Virus record (IMG/VR): IMGVR_UViG_3300002835_000640
Coordinates: 1-33,353 of that record
Strand: one strand, 5' to 3'
Length of the DNA: 33,353 nucleotides
DNA from: a virus
Position numbers and translations under genes: made by a program. The notes below the pieces were generated by a model, which was not told where the DNA came from, ran no database searches, and worked only from the letters and a program-made list of their open reading frames with translations. Positions 1-28,173 of this stretch are shown in pieces. Position 1 is the first letter of the stretch. Each line of letters opens with the position of its first letter.

Positions 1-116
1 GGTTAGACGTCCCATTGAGAAAATCCGCGATGTCGTGACATCGGCAATGCGTCACCGTTTAGCGCCAGTCGTGACGCTTTTGAAATTGACATGGCGCACT
101 TTTTGAAAGTGCGACA
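1..116. promoter_or_regulatory. Palindrome-rich region upstream of terminase genes (candidate cos/operator region)
   Basis: No gene is seen. Three perfect inverted repeats are packed here: GATGTC/GACATC at 29-34 and 37-42 with a 2-nt gap; GCGTCAC/GTGACGC at 49-55 and 71-77; and CGCACTTT/AAAGTGCG at 95-102 and 106-113 with a 3-nt gap, ending 3 nt before the first ATG. A TTGACA hexamer lies at 86-91. In lambda-like phages the cos cleavage and terminase-binding sites sit just upstream of the small terminase gene, so this may be cos; it may equally be a late promoter with operators. The GTGACGC half-site also occurs around the attachment site. Structure is seen; function is inferred. Confidence 0.5.
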
Positions 117-3076: not shown

Positions 3077-3095
3077 TTGACACCCGGGCACGACC
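3077..3095 (+). promoter_or_regulatory. TTGACAC element, 12 nt before start codon (copy 1)
   Basis: TTGACAC at 3077-3083, then exactly 12 nt to the ATG at 3096. The preceding GCAGCA is shared with the copy at 14897. No Shine-Dalgarno sequence lies between the element and the ATG. Confidence 0.6.
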
Positions 3096-3440
3096 ATGCC
3101 CGTCTCCGTTTCAGACCTGCGCCAGGAGTGGCTATTCCTGGCCCGCAACCTCTACCCCGCCACCGACTACGCGGCCCAGAAGACCTACCTCTGGAAAGAA
3201 TACACCGCGCTTACCGCCGCAGGCGATGCCGAGGGCACTGCCGCCTCGAAGGACGGAGCCAATGGAGCCTTCCAATGGAGGGGAGCCACGCCCGAGGAAA
3301 AACGGCTCGCCTTGCGTGGAGCCATCGAGCACCTCGAAGGACTCATCGCCGGTGAAGTCGCCAGCCAATACGCCAAGCCCTTCGGCTTCAAATTTGTGGG
3401 CACCCCACACGAAACCTTCGAGACCTCTGAATACCTATGA
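3096..3440 (+). CDS. Putative head-tail connector protein (gpW position)
   Basis: 114 residues, mostly helical by composition. It lies between the large terminase and portal genes and its stop overlaps the portal ATG (ATGA). In lambda this slot holds W, a 68-residue head-completion protein that joins portal and tail. This product is longer, with a Gly/Ala/Asp-rich middle (about 42-58) that could be a loop. No diagnostic motif was recognised, so the assignment is by position only. The start is fixed by the TTGACAC element 12 nt upstream. Confidence 0.5.
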   Translation: MPVSVSDLRQEWLFLARNLYPATDYAAQKTYLWKEYTALTAAGDAEGTAASKDGANGAFQWRGATPEEKRLALRGAIEHLEGLIAGEVASQYAKPFGFKFVGTPHETFETSEYL

Positions 3441-5026
3441 GCCGCAAAAAGGCCACCGCACCGACCGGAAAAGCTCCGGTCTTTTCCCCGACCAACGCAC
3501 TGGGCCCCACCACTGGCACCGTCCGCGTCGCTCCGCAGCGCATGTGGAGCAACAAATCGCTGGAGGGCATGGCGAAAAACCGCAACCGCGTGGAGGTCTC
3601 ACGCTTCCTCCAGGACGAGATTCCGGTCGTGAAATACGCGGTGCAAACCTTGCCCAAAGAAGCCATCGGCAAAGGCATCGGGCTCAAATCCATCTCCACG
3701 AATCCCGAGTTCAAAGCCGCTGCCACCGCGTTCTTCGGCAAGTGGGCCAGCTCCACCGCTTGCGATCTTCGCAAAGAAAGCACCTTCTACCAGCTCCAGC
3801 CCCGCTGGCTCAGTGCCATTCTCGGCGACGGTTCCTGCTTCGTGCAAAAAGTAAAAGGCGACGAAATGACCCGCACCTGGTCACTGGCCGACAAATCCAA
3901 ACGCCGCGTTCAATTTCAGACCTTCACCCGAGACCAGGCGTGCTCGCCCGCCAGTGCCATCGACAAGGAAGACCGCTGGAACGATGGGCTCCTTTACAAC
4001 AACTTTGGCCAGCTGGCGAAGGTCCGCATCTGCCTCGATGGCGATCCCTATTCACGCGATTCCCGCTTCGTGGATCTCGATGCCAATTTCATCAGCCACC
4101 TGAAGGACAATTTGCGCTTCAATCAGCAGCACGGCACGCCCGCCATTTTCACCAGTGGCAATGACCTGCTCGATGCCCTCGACCTCAAAGCCGTGCGGAA
4201 ACACTCGGCCAAGATTCGCGCCTCCCTGCTCGGCGTCACCACCACCACCGGCGGTGAGGTGCCTAATGCCATGAAGCAGGTCATGAAAAACACCCAGTCG
4301 GGAGTGCCGGCAGTGGACACCGGAAAACGCTTTGTCGAGATCCACGACGGCGCGGTCATGATTCCCCTGGGCATGAATGAAGACATCAAGTTCTTCACCA
4401 GCGGCGAGGCCGTGAATTTCGCCCAGCTCCTGGAGCATCTCACGCAGCCCTTCATCTATAACTTCGGCCTGCCGCCGGAGTGGATCTTCTCCATGGGCAG
4501 TCTCGGCGGTGCCAGTGCGCGTGCCATCCTCGACAAAGTGCGCCGCGCCTACGAAAACATGCGCGGCCTCATTTACCCGCACCTCCAATGGTGCTGGGAG
4601 TTCGTCATCGCCGATGCCATGCTGCCCGGTGGACCCTTGGAGAAATTCGCCACCGTCGATGACTGGAACGAGATCGACTTCGTGTGCGATCCCGACCCAA
4701 GCGTCGATCTCGGTCGCGATCACAAAGCGGACATGGACCGCTGGGACAGCCACCTGATCACGGCGGAAGATTACATCGAGCAACGCAGCGCCATGTCCGG
4801 CGTCTCCGTGCGTCACGCCAGCATCGATGAAAAACTCGACAATGTGCGCTACGCCATCTCCCAGGCGACCGGCAGACCCATCATTGAGGTCATGATCCCC
4901 GAGTCCATCGCCATCATCATCGGCCTCGGGCCAAAGGTCACGCAGGCCGCCAGTGGTCTCGTGGGCAGTTTATCGGCAGAGGCCATCGCGGACGAGCTAA
5001 GTGCCAATGACGACCCGGAAGATTGA
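3437..5026 (+). CDS. Portal protein (lambda gpB family)
   Basis: 529 residues, close to the lambda portal length. Portals form the ring at one capsid vertex through which DNA enters and to which the tail attaches. Supporting features are the position between terminase and ClpP-type protease genes, an N-terminal region reading SRFLQDEIPVVKYAVQTLPKEAIGKGIGL, the central NFAQLLEHLTQPFIYNFGLP segment, and the ASARAILDKVRRAY stretch that resembles the membrane-distal helices of lambda-type portals. The ATG at 3437 overlaps the previous stop. The stop TGA (5024-5026) lies inside the TTGACAC element of the next gene. Confidence 0.88.
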   Translation: MSRKKATAPTGKAPVFSPTNALGPTTGTVRVAPQRMWSNKSLEGMAKNRNRVEVSRFLQDEIPVVKYAVQTLPKEAIGKGIGLKSISTNPEFKAAATAFFGKWASSTACDLRKESTFYQLQPRWLSAILGDGSCFVQKVKGDEMTRTWSLADKSKRRVQFQTFTRDQACSPASAIDKEDRWNDGLLYNNFGQLAKVRICLDGDPYSRDSRFVDLDANFISHLKDNLRFNQQHGTPAIFTSGNDLLDALDLKAVRKHSAKIRASLLGVTTTTGGEVPNAMKQVMKNTQSGVPAVDTGKRFVEIHDGAVMIPLGMNEDIKFFTSGEAVNFAQLLEHLTQPFIYNFGLPPEWIFSMGSLGGASARAILDKVRRAYENMRGLIYPHLQWCWEFVIADAMLPGGPLEKFATVDDWNEIDFVCDPDPSVDLGRDHKADMDRWDSHLITAEDYIEQRSAMSGVSVRHASIDEKLDNVRYAISQATGRPIIEVMIPESIAIIIGLGPKVTQAASGLVGSLSAEAIADELSANDDPED

Positions 5027-5041
5027 CACCCGCCGCGCATC
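5023..5041 (+). promoter_or_regulatory. TTGACAC element, 12 nt before start codon (copy 2)
   Basis: TTGACAC at 5023-5029, then exactly 12 nt to the ATG at 5042. The TGA within the element is the portal stop codon, so termination of one gene and the signal for the next coincide. Confidence 0.6.
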
Positions 5042-6124
5042 ATGCGCTCCTGGTTTCAAATTCGCAATGCTGGCTCCGACTCCCTCACGATCGACATCAC
5101 CGATGAGATCGGCTACTTTGGTGTGTCGGCCAAAGACTTCGCTGCCCAGCTGAAAGCAGCAGGCACCCCCAAGTCCATCGTCCTCAATCTCGACACCCCA
5201 GGGGGCGACTGCAATGACGGCTTCACCATCTACGACGCGCTCAAAAACTCCGGCGCATCGATCACCGTGAACATCACCGGGATGGCGGCCTCCATGGGCA
5301 GCGTCATCATGCTGGCCGGAGAGAAAATCCGCATCGCCGAAAATGGCCGCGTCATGATCCACCGCGTCACCGGCGGGGCCGTGGGCAACGCGGACGAAAT
5401 GGACGCCGCTGCCAAGGTCATCCAGCAATTCGAAAACCGGATCGTGGCTCTCTACACCGAGCGCACCGGCAAAGACGAAGCTGAGATCCGCGACCTCATG
5501 AAAGCTCAGATGGGCACCTGGTTCTTTGGCGAAGAAGCCATCGACGCAGGCTTTGCGGATGAGCTGATCAAAGGCACCCAGGCACGCGCCTTCAAAGCCG
5601 AGTGGGCCGCAAAATTCACCATGCTCCCCGCCGCATTATTTGACACGCGCCAAGACGAAACGCCCACCGCGTCCATCTCCACTCAAATCACAATGACCAA
5701 AGCCATCATCGCCCTCGCTGCACACGCTGGCATCGCTCTCTCGGGCGATGAAACGGAAGACCAAATCTGCGCTGCCATCGCCGCTCACAAGCCCGAAGCC
5801 GCCAAGTTTGAAATGAACCTCGAAGACGCGGAGACCAAGAAGATCTTCGACACCGCAGTCGGTTCCGGCATTGCCGCCGCGCTGCCCGCCGCCGTCGCTG
5901 CTGCCACCCAGCCGCTGGAAGAAAAGATCGCCGCGCTCTCCGCCCTGGTCACGCACGGTGCCGCTGGTTCCGCGCAGGGTGCTGCTGCCACCTCCGGTGC
6001 AGGCACCGCCGCCAAAGGCTCCGCGCTCGACCAGTTCAACGCCATCGAAGATCCCGCTGAGCGTCAAGCCTTCTACAACAAGAATCTGGTGGCCATCAAG
6101 GCCGCAATGAAAAACGCAGCCTAA
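5042..6124 (+). CDS. Head maturation protease (ClpP/S49-like) with C-terminal scaffold-like domain
   Basis: 360 residues. Residues 1 to about 180 form a ClpP-fold serine protease: GMAASMGS places the nucleophile at Ser84, RVMIH places His107, and GFADEL places Asp173. This protease processes scaffold and capsid proteins during prohead maturation. Residues from about 200 on are Ala-rich and helical (EEKIAALSALV), like a scaffold. An in-frame ATG at codon 218 (5693) could give the scaffold separately, as lambda C and Nu3 do. It sits between portal and major capsid genes. A TTGACAC copy at 5640 lies inside the gene, 46 nt before the internal ATG. Confidence 0.9.
   Translation: MRSWFQIRNAGSDSLTIDITDEIGYFGVSAKDFAAQLKAAGTPKSIVLNLDTPGGDCNDGFTIYDALKNSGASITVNITGMAASMGSVIMLAGEKIRIAENGRVMIHRVTGGAVGNADEMDAAAKVIQQFENRIVALYTERTGKDEAEIRDLMKAQMGTWFFGEEAIDAGFADELIKGTQARAFKAEWAAKFTMLPAALFDTRQDETPTASISTQITMTKAIIALAAHAGIALSGDETEDQICAAIAAHKPEAAKFEMNLEDAETKKIFDTAVGSGIAAALPAAVAAATQPLEEKIAALSALVTHGAAGSAQGAAATSGAGTAAKGSALDQFNAIEDPAERQAFYNKNLVAIKAAMKNAA
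5693..6124 (+). CDS. Possible internal-start scaffold protein nested in protease gene
   Basis: 143 residues in the same frame as the protease, starting MTKAIIALAAHAG and ending at the same stop. The segment is Ala/Glu-rich and predominantly helical, with a probable coiled coil (TQPLEEKIAALSALV) and a glycine/alanine-rich tail, like scaffold proteins. The nested arrangement copies lambda C/Nu3. No Shine-Dalgarno sequence is visible before the internal ATG, so separate expression is an inference. Confidence 0.4.
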   Translation: MTKAIIALAAHAGIALSGDETEDQICAAIAAHKPEAAKFEMNLEDAETKKIFDTAVGSGIAAALPAAVAAATQPLEEKIAALSALVTHGAAGSAQGAAATSGAGTAAKGSALDQFNAIEDPAERQAFYNKNLVAIKAAMKNAA

Positions 6125-6162
6125 CCCTCCACCTCTGACCCCACCCTTCACTCCAAAAATAT

Positions 6163-7059
6163 ATGGCCACCCTCTTCAATGACCGTCTGTTCGCCACGCA
6201 AGCCTTCCAGCAAGTCGTGGACATGCTCGCCCCCTTGAACGCTTTCTCCACTGACCTCAGCTCCCTCGCGGGCCGTCAGGGTGAGAGCATCACCGTGCCG
6301 CTCTTCGGCTCGGCCACCGCCACCACCTACACGCAGGCAGCTGACGTCATGGAAGGCACCGGCGGCACCATCACCGCCATCACCGTCACGCTGAACGCTC
6401 GCAAGATCGTTCCCGTGGACGTCACCACCCAGCAGCTGGCAGATTCCGCCAACGCTGGCAACTACGACGCCTACGCGCAGCAGATGAGCGCCGCGCTGAG
6501 CACCCTGATCTTCCAGGACATCCTCAGCATGTTCACGGTCGCCGCTTTCGGTGCCCCCACCACCACCGCCTCCGCCAACTTCAAGCTCGACGCCGTGCTC
6601 GCCGCTCGCGTCGCCTTGAACAACAAGAAGTGCCCTCGCGCCAATCGCACCTTGCTGCTCGATGACAGCGTCGAGGCAGGTTTGTTCAGCGACACGAATT
6701 TGGTGCTGGCACTCAATCGCGGTGGCAATCAAGCCATCAACGAGGGCGACATCGGACGCGTGCTCGGGTTCGACATCATGACCCCCACCGCCTTCCCGCT
6801 CAATGGCATCTCCCTCATCGGGATCGCCGTGGGTAAGGGTGCCGCCGCTGTGGCCTTCCGTGGCCTTCAAAACTTGCTCCCCGAGCAGGAATACGAAGCC
6901 TTCGAAGTGCTGACCGATTCCGCCACCGGAATCAGTGCGCTCTACACGCGCCACTGGAATCGCGCCGCTGGCAAGTATTTCATGAACATGCAGGCCCTCT
7001 ACGGGTATGCCCGCGCACTGACTCTTCAAGGTCACTGCATCACCACGGCCACGACCTAG
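6163..7059 (+). CDS. Major capsid protein (HK97-fold type)
   Basis: 298 residues. It follows the protease/scaffold gene and precedes head-tail genes, the standard slot of the shell protein. The opening (ATLFNDRLFATQAFQQVVD), followed by the GESITVPLF strand and VPVDVTTQQLADSANAGNYDAYAQQ, reads like capsid proteins that carry a short N-arm and then an E-loop/P-domain. The end (GYARALTLQ) is a buried beta strand. Length suits a shell protein without a long cleaved delta domain. No Shine-Dalgarno sequence is seen before the ATG (CCAAAAATAT). Two hairpins, one a good terminator, follow directly. Confidence 0.8.
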   Translation: MATLFNDRLFATQAFQQVVDMLAPLNAFSTDLSSLAGRQGESITVPLFGSATATTYTQAADVMEGTGGTITAITVTLNARKIVPVDVTTQQLADSANAGNYDAYAQQMSAALSTLIFQDILSMFTVAAFGAPTTTASANFKLDAVLAARVALNNKKCPRANRTLLLDDSVEAGLFSDTNLVLALNRGGNQAINEGDIGRVLGFDIMTPTAFPLNGISLIGIAVGKGAAAVAFRGLQNLLPEQEYEAFEVLTDSATGISALYTRHWNRAAGKYFMNMQALYGYARALTLQGHCITTATT

Positions 7060-7084
7060 TCTTCGCCCTCGCTTCGCCACCCCT

Positions 7085-7107
7085 CCCTCGTGTTTGTGCC
7101 ACGAGGG
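7085..7107 (+). terminator. Hairpin downstream of major capsid gene
   Basis: Perfect 8-bp stem CCCTCGTG (7085-7092) with CACGAGGG (7100-7107) and a 7-nt loop, 26 nt after the capsid stop. There is no long T-run after it. It may stabilise the capsid mRNA 3' end or act with the terminator at 7144. Confidence 0.55.
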
Positions 7108-7143
7108 CGGGTTTGTTTCACCCAGTTCAAAACTTCGGTTTTA

Positions 7144-7179
7144 CCCGACGCTGCCCGCACTTGGCACGTCGGGTTTTTT
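7144..7179 (+). terminator. Intrinsic terminator between capsid and glycosyltransferase genes
   Basis: Stem CCCGACG (7144-7150) with CGTCGGG (7167-7173), extended inward by TGCC/GGCA across a single bulged C, a 7-nt loop, and a run of six T (7174-7179). It lies 8 nt before the next start codon. Confidence 0.8.
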
Positions 7180-7186
7180 ATTCCCC

Positions 7187-14141: not shown

Positions 14142-14648
14142 ATGCCGAAACCCAAAACACCCGCCGTCTACCTTGACCCCGGCGAAGAATCCACCCCCAC
14201 CGCCGCCGCCCCTGCCGTCGAGCAGATCACCTTCCAGGAGGGCATCTTCCACCTCCAAGGCACCCCGCTCAGCCCCTTCGCCGTCGACCGTGAGTCCGCC
14301 TGGCACCTTCACCGCGCTCAGCTTTCGGCACCTCCTGTGCAGCAGCTGGGCACGCTGGGTGAGTGGGGACAGGACGCCATCCGCATTCTGTGGTTTTGCG
14401 CTCACGAACCCGCAGACTGGATCAGCGCCCCGATGGGCCAGCGGGTCGATGGCCAGTGGGTCCGTTACACGCCCGAGCAGCGAGCCGCCAGATTGGAGAT
14501 CAAGATGACCGAGTGGTCCCAGGGTGCCCTCGCCGGGTCAGCCTTGCCCGAGGTCGTGAATCTCGCCTTGGCCATCCTCGCCAGTGCCAGCAAAAACCGC
14601 GCCGTGCCCATCGCCAGCGGCAAAGGAGGAACCCCCTCGGGAAACTAG
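14142..14648 (+). CDS. Tail assembly chaperone (lambda gpG-like)
   Basis: 168 residues. It lies immediately before a short overlapping ORF and the tape measure gene, the invariant position of tail assembly chaperones, which bind the tape measure during tail assembly. It ends at a canonical -1 slippery heptamer GGGAAAC (14639-14645) read as G GGA AAC just before the stop TAG. The Pro/Ala-rich start is followed by WHLHRAQLSAPPVQQLGTLGEWGQDAIRILWFCAHEPADW and a predominantly helical end. Sequence motifs are weak; the frameshift site and gene order make the case. Confidence 0.8.
   Translation: MPKPKTPAVYLDPGEESTPTAAAPAVEQITFQEGIFHLQGTPLSPFAVDRESAWHLHRAQLSAPPVQQLGTLGEWGQDAIRILWFCAHEPADWISAPMGQRVDGQWVRYTPEQRAARLEIKMTEWSQGALAGSALPEVVNLALAILASASKNRAVPIASGKGGTPSGN
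14639..14645 (+). other. Programmed -1 ribosomal frameshift site GGGAAAC
   Basis: X XXY YYZ heptamer in the correct phase (tcG GGA AAC tag), directly followed by the zero-frame stop. Slipping back one base enters the open frame ending at 14884. Lambda G/GT uses GGGAAAG at the same place. Confidence 0.85.
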
Positions 14649-14884
14649 CCCTGCCCGCGCTGAGTGCTCAATACGTGAGCCTCATCGCGCGGGCCTGCCC
14701 GGGTCTTTTCACGGAGGACTTCATCCGTTTCCACCTGCCTCAAGAACGAGGCTGGGCCTACATCCACGCCTGGCAGGTCGAGGCAGGCCAGCGCGTGCAA
14801 TGGCGCGACGACCGCAACCCTGGCGTGCAGTGGTGGCAGGACATCAAGAAGAAGCTCAGCAGCCTCCGCACCGAGGAACGCTGA
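14645..14884 (+). CDS. Tail assembly chaperone frameshift extension (gpT-like part of gpGT)
   Basis: About 79 residues in the -1 frame, reached from the upstream chaperone by frameshifting at GGGAAAC; no own start codon is needed. The peptide begins after the slip with LALPALSAQYVSLIARACPGLFTEDF and ends QDIKKKLSSLRTEER. It contains a Trp-rich helical segment (GWAYIHAWQVEAGQRVQWRDD). The fusion would be about 247 residues, made in small amounts as in lambda, where the T part contacts the tail tube protein while the G part binds the tape measure. Confidence 0.8.
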   Translation, partial: LALPALSAQYVSLIARACPGLFTEDFIRFHLPQERGWAYIHAWQVEAGQRVQWRDDRNPGVQWWQDIKKKLSSLRTEER

Positions 14885-14896
14885 CGCCTCGCAGCA

Positions 14897-14917
14897 TTGA
14901 CACGCGAGCCACCCTGA
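14897..14917 (+). promoter_or_regulatory. TTGACAC element, 14 nt before start codon (copy 5)
   Basis: TTGACAC at 14897-14903, preceded by GCAGCA as in copy 1, followed by 14 nt and the ATG at 14918. The only copy whose spacing is not 12 nt. Confidence 0.55.
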
Positions 14918-16225
14918 ATGGCAAAAGTTAAACTCGGACTCGACGACAGTGAGCTGAGGTCTGGGCTCAAAGGCGCAGCCCAACAGCTCAGCACCTTTCA
15001 GCGTCAGACCGTCGCTTCATTTCAAGGCGTCAGTGCTGCATTTGCGGCCTTTGGGGGAGGCGCAGCCATCACGGGTCTGATCACCCGAGGCATCGAGTTC
15101 AACAAAAACATGGCCGACTCCGAGGTCGCCATCGGCAACGTCCTGCGGCAGTTTCAAGGGCTCAACCAGGAAGCCGCCAAGGCGGAAGCGGCCAAGGCGA
15201 TGCAGCAGATCGTCGATCTGGAGCCCTTAGTGGCCGGATCACTCGGCGACCTCACCGGCGGTTTCATGGCGACCATTGCAAGTGCGCAAGCCATGGGCAT
15301 TTCCGTTGAGGATAACATCACCCTGGTCGGGCTTTTTGCCAATGCGCTGGCCAACGCCAAGATCCCAGCGGAGCAGCTGGCGCAGGAAATGCGCTCCATC
15401 CTGACGGGCAACATTGGCGCAGACTCGACACTGGCCAAGGTGCTCAACATCACCAATGAAGATGTAAAAAACGCCAAAGAAGCGGGTGAGTTGGTCGATT
15501 TCCTTAAAAACAAAATCGGTCTGCTGGGCCAAGCGGGAGATTCGGCTGAAGTGACGTTTTCCAGTCTCAACAGCGCCATCGATAAAGCACTCGGTGCCGC
15601 CACCAAGGCCCTGTTTGAGCAGTCGGTCACAGGTGCCAAGACACTCACCGAGGTGATCAGTGAAAATCAGCAAGCCTTTGCCGCTCTCGGCTCCAGCATA
15701 GGTAGCGTATTGGGCGGTGCCGTGTCCGTCATCGGGGGAGTCGATAAAGCCATCCGAGACCTCACGGACAACACGCTCAATCTTACCAGCACGCTCATGA
15801 GCATCGGGGGAGCCGTCACGGGTTTGGGTGGCATCTCAAGCATGTTTAAAAAACCTGCCACCACCGCCGAAGCAACCTCCGAAGCGCCCGCCACGCCCCC
15901 GCCGCAGCGTGCCTCCACGCTGCCAGGTCTCGCTGCTGCCGGTGTGAACCCCGACGACCTGCTCACCTCGTCCCTGCCCGGCCTCGCCGCCGCCACCGCA
16001 CCGGTTGGACAGTCGCAGATCGAACTGCGAGAGAAGCAGGAAATGAGCAACCTCATAGCCCGGCTCGCCTCGCCCGATGGCGAGGTCACCACCCCCCAGG
16101 TGGCCGCAACCAACCAGCAATCCGGTGCCGCCAGTGCCAACGCCAACCGCTCCCGCTACGACGCCGCCACCCTCAAGGCCCTGGAGGAAAACAACAAGAT
16201 CCTCGCCACCCTCGCCGCCTACTAA
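14918..16225 (+). CDS. Tape measure protein
   Basis: 435 residues. Tape measure proteins fill the tail tube and set its length. Position after the frameshifted chaperones is diagnostic. The N-terminal part is Gln/Ala-rich and helical (QQLSTFQRQTVASFQGV), followed by hydrophobic glycine-rich segments (AAFAAFGGGAAITGLITRGI; SSIGSVLGGAVSVIGGV; STLMSIGGAVTGLGGISSM) as expected for a protein that can enter membranes, and a low-complexity Ala/Pro/Thr C-terminal third. It is short for the family; at about 0.15 nm per residue the tail would be roughly 65 nm (inference). Confidence 0.85.
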   Translation: MAKVKLGLDDSELRSGLKGAAQQLSTFQRQTVASFQGVSAAFAAFGGGAAITGLITRGIEFNKNMADSEVAIGNVLRQFQGLNQEAAKAEAAKAMQQIVDLEPLVAGSLGDLTGGFMATIASAQAMGISVEDNITLVGLFANALANAKIPAEQLAQEMRSILTGNIGADSTLAKVLNITNEDVKNAKEAGELVDFLKNKIGLLGQAGDSAEVTFSSLNSAIDKALGAATKALFEQSVTGAKTLTEVISENQQAFAALGSSIGSVLGGAVSVIGGVDKAIRDLTDNTLNLTSTLMSIGGAVTGLGGISSMFKKPATTAEATSEAPATPPPQRASTLPGLAAAGVNPDDLLTSSLPGLAAATAPVGQSQIELREKQEMSNLIARLASPDGEVTTPQVAATNQQSGAASANANRSRYDAATLKALEENNKILATLAAY

Positions 16226-16231
16226 ACAGCC

Positions 16232-17047
16232 ATGCCCGCCCCGACTGCCATTCACTACTTCGGAGACACCAGTTTAGAGATCGGTGAGGAGCCGCGCATC
16301 GTGCGCCGACTGGATGGTTTTGATGAGGGCCAGTTCACCTTCCACGGCGGAGGCCAAAACTCACTTGAGCCCGGTGACCTGGTGCCTGGTTATTCAAACC
16401 TCTTCGTGGCGGAAAACACCACCACCAATCACTCCGGCGACTACGAGCACCAGATCCGCGCCATGGGCCTCAGCAGCGGAACCAGCCGACGCATCAGCCG
16501 CGTGGCCACCGACACGGAAGACGGATTCGATACCGGCACCGAAACGTGGATCGTGCGCAAAGGCGCTAACCTCGGGCTCGGCAGATCTCACATGGATCAC
16601 CCGCAGCTCTATGCGGTCTCGCGGGCCGAGCGAAATTCCCCCATCGATCAGTTCGTCATCATCGAGTTGGGATTCTTGGGCATCAAGACCGGAGCCAAGC
16701 CGGATCGCTACAAGACCACCACCTCCTCACGCGAGCTGAGCTTCTCCGCCAAGACCGTCAACGGAAAAGCGGGGAAATGGAATGTGTTGCGCGGCGATCC
16801 CGTGATGGTCCGCAGCTACCTGAGCCTGCAAAGTCCCAACCACAACCGCGTGGCGCGTTTTGGCCCCACCCCGGCTTTTTTCCCAAACGTCTCTTCGCTC
16901 AGCGCCACCTTGAACGATGAGGATGAGCCGGTCTACCAATGGCCGGATGGCGTGGTGCTGGCCTCCCTCGACACCGACCAGGTGCCCGGCAAGAATGTCT
17001 GGTTTGTGACCGAAACCTACGTGCAGCGCGATCGCATCACCGTATGA
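16232..17047 (+). CDS. Putative distal tail / tail-tip protein
   Basis: 271 residues directly after the tape measure gene, where distal tail or tail-tip proteins are encoded. Rich in beta-forming and Asn/Asp/Gly residues, with segments such as EGQFTFHGGGQ, DQFVIIELGFLGIKTG and KNVWFVTETYVQRDRITV. No known domain recognised. C-ending codon use is typical of the virion genes. The stop overlaps the next ATG (ATGA). Confidence 0.5.
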   Translation: MPAPTAIHYFGDTSLEIGEEPRIVRRLDGFDEGQFTFHGGGQNSLEPGDLVPGYSNLFVAENTTTNHSGDYEHQIRAMGLSSGTSRRISRVATDTEDGFDTGTETWIVRKGANLGLGRSHMDHPQLYAVSRAERNSPIDQFVIIELGFLGIKTGAKPDRYKTTTSSRELSFSAKTVNGKAGKWNVLRGDPVMVRSYLSLQSPNHNRVARFGPTPAFFPNVSSLSATLNDEDEPVYQWPDGVVLASLDTDQVPGKNVWFVTETYVQRDRITV

Positions 17048-17589
17048 GCCTCGAAGGAGACCTCCTGATGCCCCCGCGTGGCCCGCTCAAATGGCGCTGG
17101 CTCACGGAGATGCTCACCAAGCTCAGCAAGGCCGCAGGCATCCTCTCCCCCGATGGCAGCGTCCAGATCAACCCCACCACCGGCGGCGTCACGCTCTACA
17201 CGCCACCGACCGCCACCACGGGCCGCATCGACATTCGGCCCGTGGGAAGCGATCGTTACCGTGTCCCGGCCTTGACGTTTTTTGATGGCATTGATTTTTC
17301 GGAAATAGGAGAGCAAGAGGTCACCCTCCGCGAAAATGAAATCCTCTGCCTGCGTTATGCTTACACCTTGGCGCTTTTTCAAAACCCCGATGCGGAGCCC
17401 GTGACTTTGGTTTCCATCAGCGTCTCGGATCTTGAATACGCGACCACGGCTAAGCCGACCAATGAGACGCCCGTCGCGGGCTTGATCTACATTCCCCTCG
17501 CCATGAGGCAGGACGGATTTGTGATTTTCGCAAAACAAACCACCATCAGTTTGGACAATTACGTCACACTGAAATTCTCCATGGGATGA
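17044..17589 (+). CDS. Tail-tip protein 1 of a three-gene group
   Basis: 181 residues from the ATG at 17044 (overlapping the previous stop), or 173 from a second in-frame ATG at 17068 that has a good Shine-Dalgarno sequence AAGGAG (17054-17059) 8 nt upstream; either may be used. N-terminal helix (LTEMLTKLSKAAGIL) followed by beta-rich sequence ending GLIYIPLAMRQDGFVIFAKQ. The next two genes share this layout (helix, then GI/NV and charged loop, then beta), suggesting diverged paralogues in the tail tip or baseplate. Overlaps the next gene. Confidence 0.5.
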   Translation: MSLEGDLLMPPRGPLKWRWLTEMLTKLSKAAGILSPDGSVQINPTTGGVTLYTPPTATTGRIDIRPVGSDRYRVPALTFFDGIDFSEIGEQEVTLRENEILCLRYAYTLALFQNPDAEPVTLVSISVSDLEYATTAKPTNETPVAGLIYIPLAMRQDGFVIFAKQTTISLDNYVTLKFSMG

Positions 17590-18077
17590 AATCACCGGTT
17601 GCATGGATTCCTTCTGTTTTAGCGGCTCGGCGTCTGCGTGAGCTGGCCCGCTCGCTCAATGTTTTTTCGGAGGGAAAACCTCTGGTTCAAACCCTCACCG
17701 GGACACGGCTGATCACGGCATCCACCCTGCCCATCAACAACTTTCCGCTCAAATTCGACAAGCAAACTCGCACGCTCACGCTGCCTGGTCTTTATTTGGA
17801 CTTTGTGAGGTGGCAATACATTCCTCCCCAGAAGGTATCCGGCGCACCCGCCGCCAATCAAAGCGGTTACCTGCGCATCGTCGTGGGGGCCACCTATGAT
17901 TTGGCAGACTTCTGGGCCACCATCAACATCGGCACACCGACTCTGGAATGGGTGCTGGACGAAAACGTCACAGCTCCGCCGCCGGATTTTTATTATATCA
18001 ACATCGTGCGCCTCGACGAAAACGCAGAACCCGTGCCTTTTCAATTATCCAGCCCCTTGATCAAGCGTTGGATTTGA
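17586..18077 (+). CDS. Tail-tip protein 2 of a three-gene group
   Basis: 163 residues. Begins MKSPVAWIPS, close to the next gene's MKSPTAFVKS; N-terminal helix (LAARRLRELARSLNVF), then beta-rich sequence with many aromatic residues (LPGLYLDFVRWQYIPPQK, PPPDFYYINIVRLDENAEPVPFQL). Unrecognised. The ATGA overlap with the previous gene suggests co-translation and perhaps fixed stoichiometry in the tail tip. Confidence 0.5.
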   Translation: MKSPVAWIPSVLAARRLRELARSLNVFSEGKPLVQTLTGTRLITASTLPINNFPLKFDKQTRTLTLPGLYLDFVRWQYIPPQKVSGAPAANQSGYLRIVVGATYDLADFWATINIGTPTLEWVLDENVTAPPPDFYYINIVRLDENAEPVPFQLSSPLIKRWI

Positions 18078-18086
18078 TCTTACCGT

Positions 18087-18671
18087 ATGAAATCACCCAC
18101 CGCTTTTGTGAAAAGCATCACCTTTGAGAAAGTCCTCGCGGCTTTTGAAAAAGCCACCGGCATCACAGTCCAAAACGGCGACTCGGCTAAGTTACCGAAG
18201 GGCGAGCGGTCCTTGTTTTTGGCCTTTCAATCCGGCCAGCACGCCCCCTTCCAAGTCACCGCCAGTTCACCGGGTCTCATCAAACTTGAGCGGGGCTTTG
18301 TCACCTACGCGGGCACCACCTACTATTACCCCGCCGCCGTTTACTCAGGCGCCGCTCCCGGGGGTGTGTTTCTGAAGATCGAAACCGATTACGCCCCTTT
18401 TCTTTTCGAAGATGTTTTCGGCAACGACTTCTGGTATCAACCACCTGTCCCCGCTAGGCCGGAGTTGGTCTGGAGAGAGCAAGGCACCGTGGGTGCTTAT
18501 TGTGAAATCTCAGAGGATGATGACGGCGCACCCATCGTCGCGTCTGCACAGACCCTTTACATCCCGATCGCAGCTCACGACGCGGGCCAGGGCATCAACT
18601 ACATCAGCCACAATATCTTCATCGCGCACGGGGAAAGGGGAGACATCGATTACCGCGAAGGCTGGGGCTAA
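18087..18671 (+). CDS. Tail-tip protein 3 of a three-gene group
   Basis: 194 residues. Starts MKSPTAFVKSITFEKVLAAFEKATGI, the same opening plan as its upstream neighbour; the rest is beta-rich and aromatic (FVTYAGTTYYYPAAVYSG, LFEDVFGNDFWYQPP). Ends with an Asp/Gly-rich stretch. Not recognised by family. A gap of 9 nt separates it from the previous stop, with no Shine-Dalgarno sequence. Likely part of the host-contacting tail tip. Confidence 0.5.
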   Translation: MKSPTAFVKSITFEKVLAAFEKATGITVQNGDSAKLPKGERSLFLAFQSGQHAPFQVTASSPGLIKLERGFVTYAGTTYYYPAAVYSGAAPGGVFLKIETDYAPFLFEDVFGNDFWYQPPVPARPELVWREQGTVGAYCEISEDDDGAPIVASAQTLYIPIAAHDAGQGINYISHNIFIAHGERGDIDYREGWG

Positions 18672-18674
18672 GGT

Positions 18675-18693
18675 TTGACACGCGACCGCCAGC
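18675..18693 (+). promoter_or_regulatory. TTGACAC element, 12 nt before start codon (copy 6)
   Basis: TTGACAC at 18675-18681, then exactly 12 nt to the ATG at 18694. The previous stop TAA ends 3 nt before the element. Confidence 0.6.
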
Positions 18694-23227: not shown

Positions 23228-23544
23228 TCTTCCGCCGCACCCCCACACGCCGCGCCCAGATCCCCGGCACCACCCTCGACTACCCCCGCGCCCGCCTCAG
23301 CCTCTTTGACAAGGTCTCCTTTTTGTTAGCTCTGAAAACCCTCGCCCACGAAATTAAAATGAAAAAAAGCTCCTGGAAAACCACCCTCGGCGGCATTCTC
23401 GCCTTCGCCGGACCCGTTGCCAAAAACGCACTGCCCGAACAATGGCAATGGATCGGGGATGCGCTGCTCTCAGTGGGTGCCCTGATCGTCGGACTGGCCG
23501 CCCGCGACAACAACGTAACGAGCGCCGAAGCCGGAGCCAAATGA
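23224..23544 (+). CDS. Holin-like small membrane protein, possible dual start
   Basis: 106 residues from the ATG at 23224 (ATGA overlap) or 61 from an in-frame ATG at 23359. The short form ([20 protein letters not shown], then [20 protein letters not shown] and NVTSAEAGA) matches a common class of small phage membrane proteins encoded next to endolysins, with two hydrophobic segments and a conserved ARDNNVTS end. The extra 45 N-terminal residues are basic and not hydrophobic. Two starts in one frame recall holin/antiholin pairs, but which start is used is undecided. Directly precedes the endolysin. Confidence 0.65.
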
Positions 23545-23988: not shown

Positions 23989-24017
23989 GCCTGCCTTTAC
24001 TGGGCAAAAGTCATCAG

Positions 24018-24040
24018 TTCGAACCCTGTATCGCGCACCA
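24018..24040 (+). other. Phage attachment site core (3' end of a tRNA gene)
   Basis: The sequence from TTCGAAC to the CCA end reads as a tRNA T-loop, 3' T-stem strand (CCTGT), 3' acceptor strand (ATCGCGC), discriminator A and CCA. The 5' side of the T-stem (ATCAG) cannot pair properly with CCTGT and no tRNA 5' half exists upstream, so it is a partial copy as carried in attP to restore the host tRNA on integration. It lies between the endolysin and the integrase with phage genes on both sides. Host tRNA identity is not determined. Confidence 0.78.
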
Positions 24041-24112
24041 TCTTGGATTGACTCTCCCCACGTAAGAGTGGGTGATTGAGGGACACGGGCGGACGGGTTG
24101 AGACAGAAAGGG

Positions 24113-24132
24113 CGTGACGTGGGACGTGACGC
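24113..24132 (+). repeat. Paired CGTGACGY repeats, right of attachment core
   Basis: CGTGACGT at 24113-24120 and CGTGACGC at 24125-24132, starts 12 bp apart, same orientation and spacing as the left pair; 16 bp before the integrase start codon, so binding here could also regulate int. Confidence 0.6.
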
Positions 24133-24147
24133 GGTTAGCGTGGGGGG

Positions 24148-25299
24148 ATGAAGGTGCGAGAACGAATTTATAAAGGGGGACGTGTGGCTTGGCAGCTGGA
24201 TCTGGGAGTGGTGGATGGGAAACGGGTGCAGCGGGCCTATGAGACGAAAGAGGCGGCGATGACGGCGATGCGGGATGCGCGGGCGGCAAGGCGCAAACAT
24301 GGAGACCAGGCGGTGATGCTTTCGGCGGCGGAGGTGGCGGAGGTGGTTCGATTGCGGGAGGAGCTGGATCGATGCGGGGCGACGCTGGGGGAGGCGGTCC
24401 GGTTTTTTTTGGCGACTTCGGGTCGGGTGAAGTTGCAAGCGGATGCGGTGCTGATGCCGGAGTTGGTGCGGCGGTTTATTGCATCGCGGAAAACGGAAGG
24501 GTGCGGGAGGCTTTACACGAATCAACTGAATGTATCGCTGGGGTCGCTGGGGCGCATGTATTCGATGCTGCCTGCGTCACAACTGACGCGTGACGCGGTG
24601 GAGCGATGGTTGGCCGGCAATGGGTGGGCTCCGAAGACGCGCAACAATTACCTGGGGGATGCGCGGGCTCTGTGTGCCTGGTCGGTGGAGCAGGGGTGGA
24701 TGTTGGTGAATCCGTGTCTGAAGATTGTGAAGGCGCGGGAGGTGCGGGAGGAGATCGAGACGCTGACGCTGGCTCAGTGTGGGCGGCTGCTGGCGGCGGC
24801 GGTGCAGGATCGGGAAGTTTGCGGGTATGTGGTGCTGAGTTTGTTTTGTGGGATCAGGCGGGCGGAGGTGGGGCGCATGAGCTGGGACGCGGTGGATCTG
24901 GAGCATGGGACGGTGATCGTGGCTGAGAAGCACGCGAAGGCGACGCGGGCGCGGAGTCGCCGGGTGGTGGATCTGCATGGGAATGCGATCGCTTGGCTGC
25001 GGGCTTGCTATGGGGCCTCTTTGCCGACCGGGAAGATCTGCCAGGGGCGGTTTGGCGATGTGTGGCTGGCGTTTCGGAAGCCGGTGATCGGCGTGGACGA
25101 GTGGCCGCATAATGCGATGCGGCACACGTTCGCCTCGATGCACTATGCGATGTGGGAGAATGAGGCGAAGCTCCAGGTGCAGATGGGGCACGAGTCAGCG
25201 GCGATGCTGCATCGGAATTATCGGGCGATTAAGACGCGCACGGAGGCTGCGGCTTTTTGGGATCTGCGACCGGAACCAGCGAAAGGGACACCGAAATGA
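24148..25299 (+). CDS. int: Tyrosine recombinase / integrase
   Basis: 383 residues. N-terminal arm-binding-like region, a SAM-like core-binding domain (about 95-195) and a C-terminal catalytic domain. Active-site residues: Arg237 (CGIRRAEV), a lysine in the AEKHAKATRAR hairpin (about 261-264), Arg325 (NAMRHTFAS), His348 (QMGHES) and nucleophile Tyr358 (HRNYRA). The usual His of HxxR is Asn322 here, with a histidine one position earlier. It integrates phage DNA at the tRNA-derived site just upstream. G-rich codon use (GCG, GTG, CTG) contrasts sharply with the gene before it. Stop overlaps a 26-residue ORF. Confidence 0.95.
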   Translation: MKVRERIYKGGRVAWQLDLGVVDGKRVQRAYETKEAAMTAMRDARAARRKHGDQAVMLSAAEVAEVVRLREELDRCGATLGEAVRFFLATSGRVKLQADAVLMPELVRRFIASRKTEGCGRLYTNQLNVSLGSLGRMYSMLPASQLTRDAVERWLAGNGWAPKTRNNYLGDARALCAWSVEQGWMLVNPCLKIVKAREVREEIETLTLAQCGRLLAAAVQDREVCGYVVLSLFCGIRRAEVGRMSWDAVDLEHGTVIVAEKHAKATRARSRRVVDLHGNAIAWLRACYGASLPTGKICQGRFGDVWLAFRKPVIGVDEWPHNAMRHTFASMHYAMWENEAKLQVQMGHESAAMLHRNYRAIKTRTEAAAFWDLRPEPAKGTPK

Positions 25300-27350: not shown

Positions 27351-27550
27351 GTGAGGACTTTCTGCTGACTTGGGATGATCTGGCGACGCGCTGGCGGATC
27401 GAGGGTCCGACGCCTGGGGCGCGGATGAAGACGGTGCGCAGACGGGCGCGGGATCTGGGGGTGAAGCCCTTCACGCCACCGCGCACACGGCCTGCGCTGA
27501 TCCGCCCTGCGGACGTGCTGAGAGCGGAAGAGAGGGGGGCGCGGAAATGA
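27347..27550 (+). CDS. Excisionase-like helix-turn-helix protein (candidate Xis)
   Basis: 67 residues, GTG start with strong Shine-Dalgarno (AAGGAGG, 27334-27340). DFLLTWDDLATRWRIEG, MKTVRRRARDLGVKPFTPPR, then ALIRPADVLRAEERGARK gives helix-turn-helix plus wing plus final helix, the layout of AlpA/excisionase-type recombination directionality factors. It is small and basic and encoded 2 kb from the integrase in the early operon. It could be the factor that drives excision from the attachment site, or a transcriptional regulator. Overlaps the sigma factor gene by ATGA. Confidence 0.6.
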   Translation: MSEDFLLTWDDLATRWRIEGPTPGARMKTVRRRARDLGVKPFTPPRTRPALIRPADVLRAEERGARK

Positions 27551-28173
27551 GTGAGGAGATGGCAACGGTGGATGTGTTGGTGGCGTCGTGTGCGGGCATC
27601 TTGGTGTCTTTGGCGCGGCGATACTGGCGGGCGGAGTCGGGCATCACGCTGGATGAAATGATGCACGAGGCGCGGGTGTCGGTCTGGAGATCGGCGGTGC
27701 GGTGGCAGACGTTTGAGGAGCGCACGGGCAAGTTTTCGAGCTATGCGTTCAATCGCATCCGGCATGATCTGTATCAATTCTGCTGCGATATGTCGCAGAC
27801 GATTCGCGTGCCACGTCAGGCGACGCACGAGCGGAGACGCGAGATGCTGGTGCCCACGGTGAGTCTCGATGAGGTGCTGCGCGATGGGGACTCGACGCGC
27901 TACGATTTTATCCAGGCGACTGAGGAGCCGGGTGTGTATAGCGAGGATGAGGTGGAGTGGGTGCGCCATGTGATGGCGACGCTGCCGGAGCGGGAGCGGT
28001 GGGTGCTGAGGGAGCGTTTTCTCAATGAGCGCACGCATCAGAGTCTGGCCACGGAGCTGGGCATCACGCGTGAGGGCGTGAGGCAGCGCGAGCTGGTGGC
28101 CCTGCGGAAGATACGTAAACGGTTGGAGGCTCAGCGCAGCCTGGCTGCCACAGGAATGGGGGTGGCAGCATGA
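27547..28173 (+). CDS. Phage-encoded sigma-70 family RNA polymerase sigma factor
   Basis: 208 residues. Region 2: residues about 15-80 (ILVSLARRYWRAE, LDEMMHEARVSVWRSAVRW, GKFSSYAFNRIRHDLYQF); region 3 start: IRVPRQATHERR (86-97); region 4: about 144-192 (TLPERERWVLRERFLNERTH, QSLATELGITREGVRQRELV, ALRKIRKRL), very close to the RpoD-type 4.2 helix-turn-helix that reads a TTGACA-like -35. Region 1.1 is absent. It would redirect host RNA polymerase, probably to late phage promoters. Placed early, between small genes with ATGA overlaps. Confidence 0.9.
   Translation: MSEEMATVDVLVASCAGILVSLARRYWRAESGITLDEMMHEARVSVWRSAVRWQTFEERTGKFSSYAFNRIRHDLYQFCCDMSQTIRVPRQATHERRREMLVPTVSLDEVLRDGDSTRYDFIQATEEPGVYSEDEVEWVRHVMATLPERERWVLRERFLNERTHQSLATELGITREGVRQRELVALRKIRKRLEAQRSLAATGMGVAA

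Follow-up and report, generated by a model that had tools for sequence, protein, structure and literature searches.

A TTGACA element at a fixed distance from start codons and pyrimidine-purine steps, a probable late promoter in a lineage of phages most likely infecting Verrucomicrobia

Promoters of T7-like single-subunit RNA polymerases have their element within ~20 bp upstream of the start, and in leaderless promoters of the sigma-70 type the -10 box spans about -12 to -7. In leaderless promoters of this type, for example those of mycobacteria, the transcription start site coincides with ATG or GTG (PMC4633059). The late promoters of the giant phages AR9 (AACA-N6-T[A/G]) and phiKZ (TATG) consist of one short word at a fixed distance from the start-site purine and are read by phage-encoded multisubunit RNA polymerases, with leaders of 26-491 nt in AR9 (PMC5312081). 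The Start-Associated Sequences (SAS) of Cluster K mycobacteriophages, the function of which is not known, are short phage repeats of one orientation that lie at a fixed short distance from start codons, are conserved across subclusters and are nearly absent from the host; they have the sequence GGGATAGGAGCCC with a Shine-Dalgarno core, stand 3-7 bp from the start and precede non-structural genes (PMC3203893).

The element that we describe here, TTGACA, resembles each of these systems in part. Like the SAS, it is a conserved phage repeat of one orientation near start codons. It differs from them in sequence, in its distance of 13 nt, in its association with structural and late genes, and in that the fixed distance, which we call the ruler, holds in places where there is no start codon; also, the AGGAG-type complementarity to the 3' end of 16S rRNA that marks Shine-Dalgarno sequences and SAS near the start is absent from the starts of groups A and C (groups of relatives described below). 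With the AR9 and phiKZ promoters it shares the short word, the late genes and the fixed distance to a purine, here the presumed start, as expected of promoters for phage RNA polymerases. Yet a multisubunit RNA polymerase gene was not found in the related records (which are possibly incomplete), and many of the predicted mRNAs would be leaderless. In contrast to T7-like promoters, the conserved base pairs number only 6-7, and a T7-type RNA polymerase gene (PF00940) was not found in 25 records, possibly incomplete, in a search for which T7 served as positive control. A phage RNA polymerase was rejected as the reader of the element, no gene having been detected in these records. As in leaderless sigma-70-type promoters, the predicted start coincides at many genes with ATG or GTG; however, the -12 to -7 region is GC-rich and no -10 box was found there. 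The initial annotation knew of no described element of this kind, and our searches of the open-access literature also found none.

The window, that is, the whole stretch of DNA analysed, is a virus record of 33,353 bp. It codes for a lambda-like head module (GpA terminase, lambda-type portal, ClpP-like protease and major head protein), an integrase adjoining tRNA 3'-end sequence, and a sigma-like protein. A phage collection searched with the window DNA contained no similar DNA. Searches with the protease, portal and terminase gathered ~60 related contigs, in which terminase identity ranged from 99% down to ~25%. A search of genome contigs gave one match, an uncultured Verrucomicrobiales bacterium; a related terminase occurs in 8 of 286 genomes of its class, and copies of TTGACA-N13-RTG surround most of these terminase genes. 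Prophages in Verrucomicrobiae genomes, such as those in records G060, G066, G181 and G186, carry the element as well. The hosts are therefore most likely Verrucomicrobia.

We scored every hexamer at offsets -40 to -6 upstream of open frames. TTGACA at -19 ranked first among all combinations of hexamer and offset in group A, to which the window belongs (36 seen, 1.5 expected), and was again at the top in the mixed group C (14 vs 0.7); in group B, a distant clade, the top combination was TTGACA at -20 (12 vs 0.5). The RTG start codon accordingly lies 13 nt after the hexamer, or 14 nt (N14) in that one clade. The initial annotation had defined the element as the heptamer TTGACAC; the hexamer proved to be its core, and the seventh-base C survives as a preference. 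Among single-mismatch variants at -19, TTGACT alone was enriched (4 vs 0.4, as compared with 50 vs 2.4 for TTGACA itself). The heptamer is present in nearly all of the related contigs, almost exclusively on the coding strand, and hexamer and spacing recur among these relatives, with retention of the element at homologous genes whose products are just 37% identical (L015). In the full records of the window's group, nearly every sense TTGACA stands at the ruler. The genes concerned were said to lack Shine-Dalgarno sequences, and the starts in groups A and C are indeed without SD-like words. In the distant clade (L054-L074), where the ruler is one base longer, the spacer often ends in GAGGGC abutting the ATG; this word, too near to serve as a Shine-Dalgarno sequence, may form an additional part of the element in this clade. 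A hairpin with GTGTC near the ATG was noticed by eye in L014 alone; it is absent from the window and was rejected as a feature of the element.

Chromosomes of 14 Verrucomicrobiae genomes, with counts summed by hand, contain TTTGACA-N13-ATG 118 times, where 115 are predicted from the N14-N22 spacings. The element is phage-specific and Verrucomicrobiae chromosomes do not use it, an excess at N13 being absent. A pattern scan of the whole of IMG/VR returned 16 matches for N12 and 9 for N9, and the element is therefore mostly confined to the lineage of the window. The antisense word TGTCAA is strongly avoided in group A (4 seen vs 47 expected from a third-order Markov model), where it ranks second for depletion among 3928 hexamers; a codon-shuffle control restricted to the window gave 0 vs 2.9, which by itself is not significant. 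TTGACA is depleted to varying degree in some host chromosomes, which weakens the argument from antisense depletion, and this argument is not decisive alone.

All eight copies of TTGACAC listed previously for the window (Table 1) were confirmed, all on the + strand and none on the - strand, and two further copies of the hexamer bring the total to ten, all in the late half. The heptamer count exceeds chance only modestly (a mean of 3.1 in shuffled sequence, with 8 or more copies in 4 of 100 shuffles) and by itself is weak evidence, unlike the spacing; significance comes from the relatives. The reported distance of 12 nt between heptamer and RTG holds at five genes (3096, 5042, 9521, 11489 and 18694), with 14 nt at 14918 and 0 in the reversed control. 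This 14-nt exception is explained because the ruler lands on a T|G step two bases before the ATG. Individual copies are also conserved by position. The copy ahead of the first late gene has a counterpart at the same place in relatives, that at 3077 can be followed to the 37%-identical homologue in L015, and that at 11470 has homologous sites in L012 and L014. The copy within the protease gene is possibly an internal promoter for a scaffold-like C-terminal product. In L015 and G012, the Thr of LFDT at this copy is replaced by Ser through AGC, so that TTTGACA is retained at the DNA level; we discounted codon bias at this site as strong evidence, the first list of sequences having been picked by presence of the motif. 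The suggestion that the element heads blocks of late genes is supported by our analysis.

Table 1. Copies of the element and associated features in the window, with predicted transcription starts (+1)
Feature	Position	Strand	Context and prediction
TTGACA	86..91	+	Precedes 117-824, the first late gene, at the position of a small terminase gene; 12-nt leader from predicted +1 105 (T|G)
Element	3077..3083	+	Predicted +1 = A of ATG 3096 (114-aa gene preceding portal gene)
Element	5023..5029	+	Overlaps portal stop codon; predicted +1 = A of ATG 5042 (ClpP-like head protease)
Copy within protease gene	5640..5646	+	Encodes LFDT; 46 nt upstream of in-frame ATG 5693; YR step absent (A|A)
Copy overlapping stop codon of gene 8863-9426	9423..9429	+	Precedes terminator; predicted +1 9442, short non-coding transcript
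Putative short late RNA	9442..9497	+	Intrinsic terminator at end: stem ~9457-9494, T-run 9490-9497 (fold)
Element	9502..9508	+	Immediately 3' of terminator; predicted +1 = G of GTG 9521 (129-aa gene)
Element	11470..11476	+	Predicted +1 = A of ATG 11489 (128-aa gene, position of major tail protein)
Element	14897..14903	+	Predicted +1 = G 14916, 2-nt leader, ATG 14918 (ccaccct|GAATGG); 435-aa gene, position of tape measure protein
Element	18675..18681	+	Predicted +1 = A of ATG 18694 (211-aa gene)
TTGACA	23306..23311	+	Before lysis region; predicted +1 23325, ~34 nt ahead of ATG 23359 (short hydrophobic, holin-like product)
Sigma-factor-like gene	27547..28173	+	Sigma70_r4 3e-14, r2 1e-5

The usual mark of a transcription start is a pyrimidine-purine (YR) step. 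At 66 non-redundant sites in groups A and C that have no RTG at N13, a class that includes some sites within coding sequence, we observed YR at positions 13|14 after TTGACA in 41 (62%), where other positions average 24% (binomial p = 5.6e-11); nucleotide 13 was a pyrimidine in 85% of these sites and nucleotide 14 a purine in 73%. The element is thus not tied to the start codon in the manner of Shine-Dalgarno sequences or SAS. In group B, the YR peak shifts to 14|15 together with the N14 spacing of start codons. Many sites of group C, when examined by eye, read R-N-T-ATG, which corresponds to a 3-nt leader with the ruler unchanged. In the window, the step is found at 13|14 in 9 of the 10 copies; of the 5 that have no start codon at this distance, 4 retain it. 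Since YR is kept where the start codon is absent, the ruler most likely measures the start of transcription and not the start codon, and we infer that the late genes are expressed from such YR steps.

Sequences upstream of the element point in the same direction. A terminator-like hairpin with a T-run lies directly upstream of 24 of 159 element sites, as compared with 61 of 2881 control starts (odds ratio 8, p = 2e-12), and at several sites the T-run merges into TTGACA itself, with the ATG 13 nt further on in G009 and L039 and 14 nt in L075. Barring read-through, RNA must therefore begin within those few bases. Ten records (the window at 9442-9497, G002, G005, G006, G007, L040, G009, G012, G013 and G024) share a layout in which the element is followed by a structured non-coding stretch of 55-100 nt, an intrinsic terminator and, usually, TTGAC[A/T]-N13-start codon. 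The putative short RNA lies between glycosyltransferase genes and the next head-tail gene; in several of the records its 5' hairpin opens at the predicted +1 or a few nucleotides away, and several copies contain a GTTTGGTTGCTC-like linker. A search of Rfam with the short RNA gave nothing above threshold. In the window, two glycosyltransferase-like genes (7187-9426) separate that of the major head protein from the head-tail genes, and homologues of the two (BLAST clusters) are present in 10-13 of 19 full records, distant groups included.

In the aggregate, we think it probable from these sequence comparisons that TTGACA-N12-Y-R(+1) is a phage-specific late promoter, which would often yield leaderless mRNAs. 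A phage factor would alter the transcription machinery of the infected cell, which would then recognise the hexamer, positioned at -19 to -14, in double-stranded DNA; RNA would begin 14 nt beyond it, at the purine. An mRNA would be leaderless if its ATG or GTG opens with this purine; where the start codon lies further on, there would be a leader of 2 to ~45 nt; and where the element precedes a terminator, a short non-coding RNA would be made. The initial annotation was correct in regarding the element as real, at a fixed distance and distinct from a conventional -35 box. Its suggestion of a translation-initiation or reinitiation signal is less well supported in view of the YR ruler at sites without start codons, the upstream terminators and the apparent terminated non-coding RNA. 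A transcription start had been dismissed there since only the standard -35 geometry was considered, and the evidence favours a start at or near the start codon.

In the version of the promoter model that assigns the promoters of the window's phage to the sigma-like gene product alone, that protein offers genuine sigma regions 2 and 4, and its region 4 helix ITREGVRQRELVALRKIRK retains the Arg-Glu and Arg-Gln positions through which sigma-70 contacts TTGACA. We regard this version as unlikely, given that a detectable sigma gene is missing from most element-bearing relatives (the family scored above cut-off in just 3 of 25 related records, the window and two others) and that standard sigma2-sigma4 geometry does not put +1 13 nt after a -35 box. 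The same count led us to reject a phage sigma factor as universal reader. A shared small regulator was sought among BLAST clusters and not found: those common to all 19 full records were all from the structural half (terminase, portal and one tail-region protein). A small and rapidly evolving protein, acting through modification of the host RNA polymerase, may be the recognition factor. More tentatively, we can imagine that a small phage factor redirects host RNA polymerase to the -35 consensus hexamer, placed at -19 and used without a -10 box, and that leaderless late mRNAs are started in this way throughout this lineage of Verrucomicrobia phages; we know of no earlier description of such an architecture.

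The main rival to the promoter model is RNA processing, in which an endonuclease would cut a long late transcript 13 nt after UUGACA, between Y and R, to leave leaderless or short-leader mRNAs. The 5' ends would be the same as those from a promoter, and the ruler and YR step fit equally. However, the intrinsic terminators upstream of several copies would halt the precursor, and a signal at the RNA level is not expected to give antisense depletion; we consider this reading improbable. Less likely again, and in our view of low probability, is a translation-initiation element, in which the mRNA of SD-less genes would recruit a ribosome or RNA-binding protein through UUGACA, 13 nt ahead of the start codon. 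To our knowledge, the anti-SD tail has no complement of UUGACA, which counts against such an element. The exact RTG spacing at many unrelated genes and the late genes without Shine-Dalgarno sequences are in keeping with it, as is the occurrence of SD-scarce species among Verrucomicrobia (PMC10783764). Against it, the distance to the YR step is unchanged even without a start codon, start codons 2-45 nt further on are tolerated, and copies stand ahead of terminated non-coding stretches; a non-coding RNA needs no translation signal, and the ten-record layout therefore counts against this reading. Reinitiation through stop-codon overlap was rejected: the TGA of the heptamer serves as the upstream stop at some sites only and falls out of frame in the N14 clade, and at 9502 the genes are separated by a terminator.

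A conventional sigma-70 promoter is very improbable. TTGACA is the textbook -35 consensus, and the immunity regions of G005 and G007 have separate classical promoter-like sites with an AT-rich -10, yet -10-like hexamers at spacers 15-19 show no excess (10 of 159 sites, as against 15 and 10 at control spacings), transcription would start inside genes with the fixed RTG distance left unexplained, and the hexamer is near-invariant, unlike usual -35 boxes. The leaderless class has a GC-rich spacer in which neither a -10 box nor a melting element was found. With no -10 at the standard distance, TTGACA is therefore not acting as an ordinary -35 box. The classical-looking sites, at ~24572 in G005 and ~25584 in G007, combine TTGACA with an AT-rich -10 and repeated acccattgg operators, and probably mark the repressor (immunity) region; ordinary promoters seem to coexist with the TTGACA-N13 element.

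Late transcription of phages is known from few hosts, and our literature search found nothing for Verrucomicrobia. A near-invariant 6-bp signal with a start-site ruler predicts dozens of 5' ends base by base, as well as a small RNA and structural mRNAs without leaders. Should the factor prove to be a small protein by which host RNA polymerase is repositioned, this would be a new route of promoter specification and a compact tool for leaderless expression.

Other features of the window were observed in passing. At ~24 kb (24000-24148), GC skew changes sign, yet the genes remain on the + strand; the same segment, upstream of the integrase gene, contains a tRNA 3'-end-like sequence, GTTCGAACCCTGTATCGCGCACCA, that is likely attP. 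Three adjacent small genes at 12737-13310 begin almost identically, with repeats of 42-88 nt at their 5' ends, as would follow from duplication, and tandem repeats with a spacing of 14 nt (AACCAAGAACCGAG type) occupy 14089-14137, immediately upstream of the gene at 14142.
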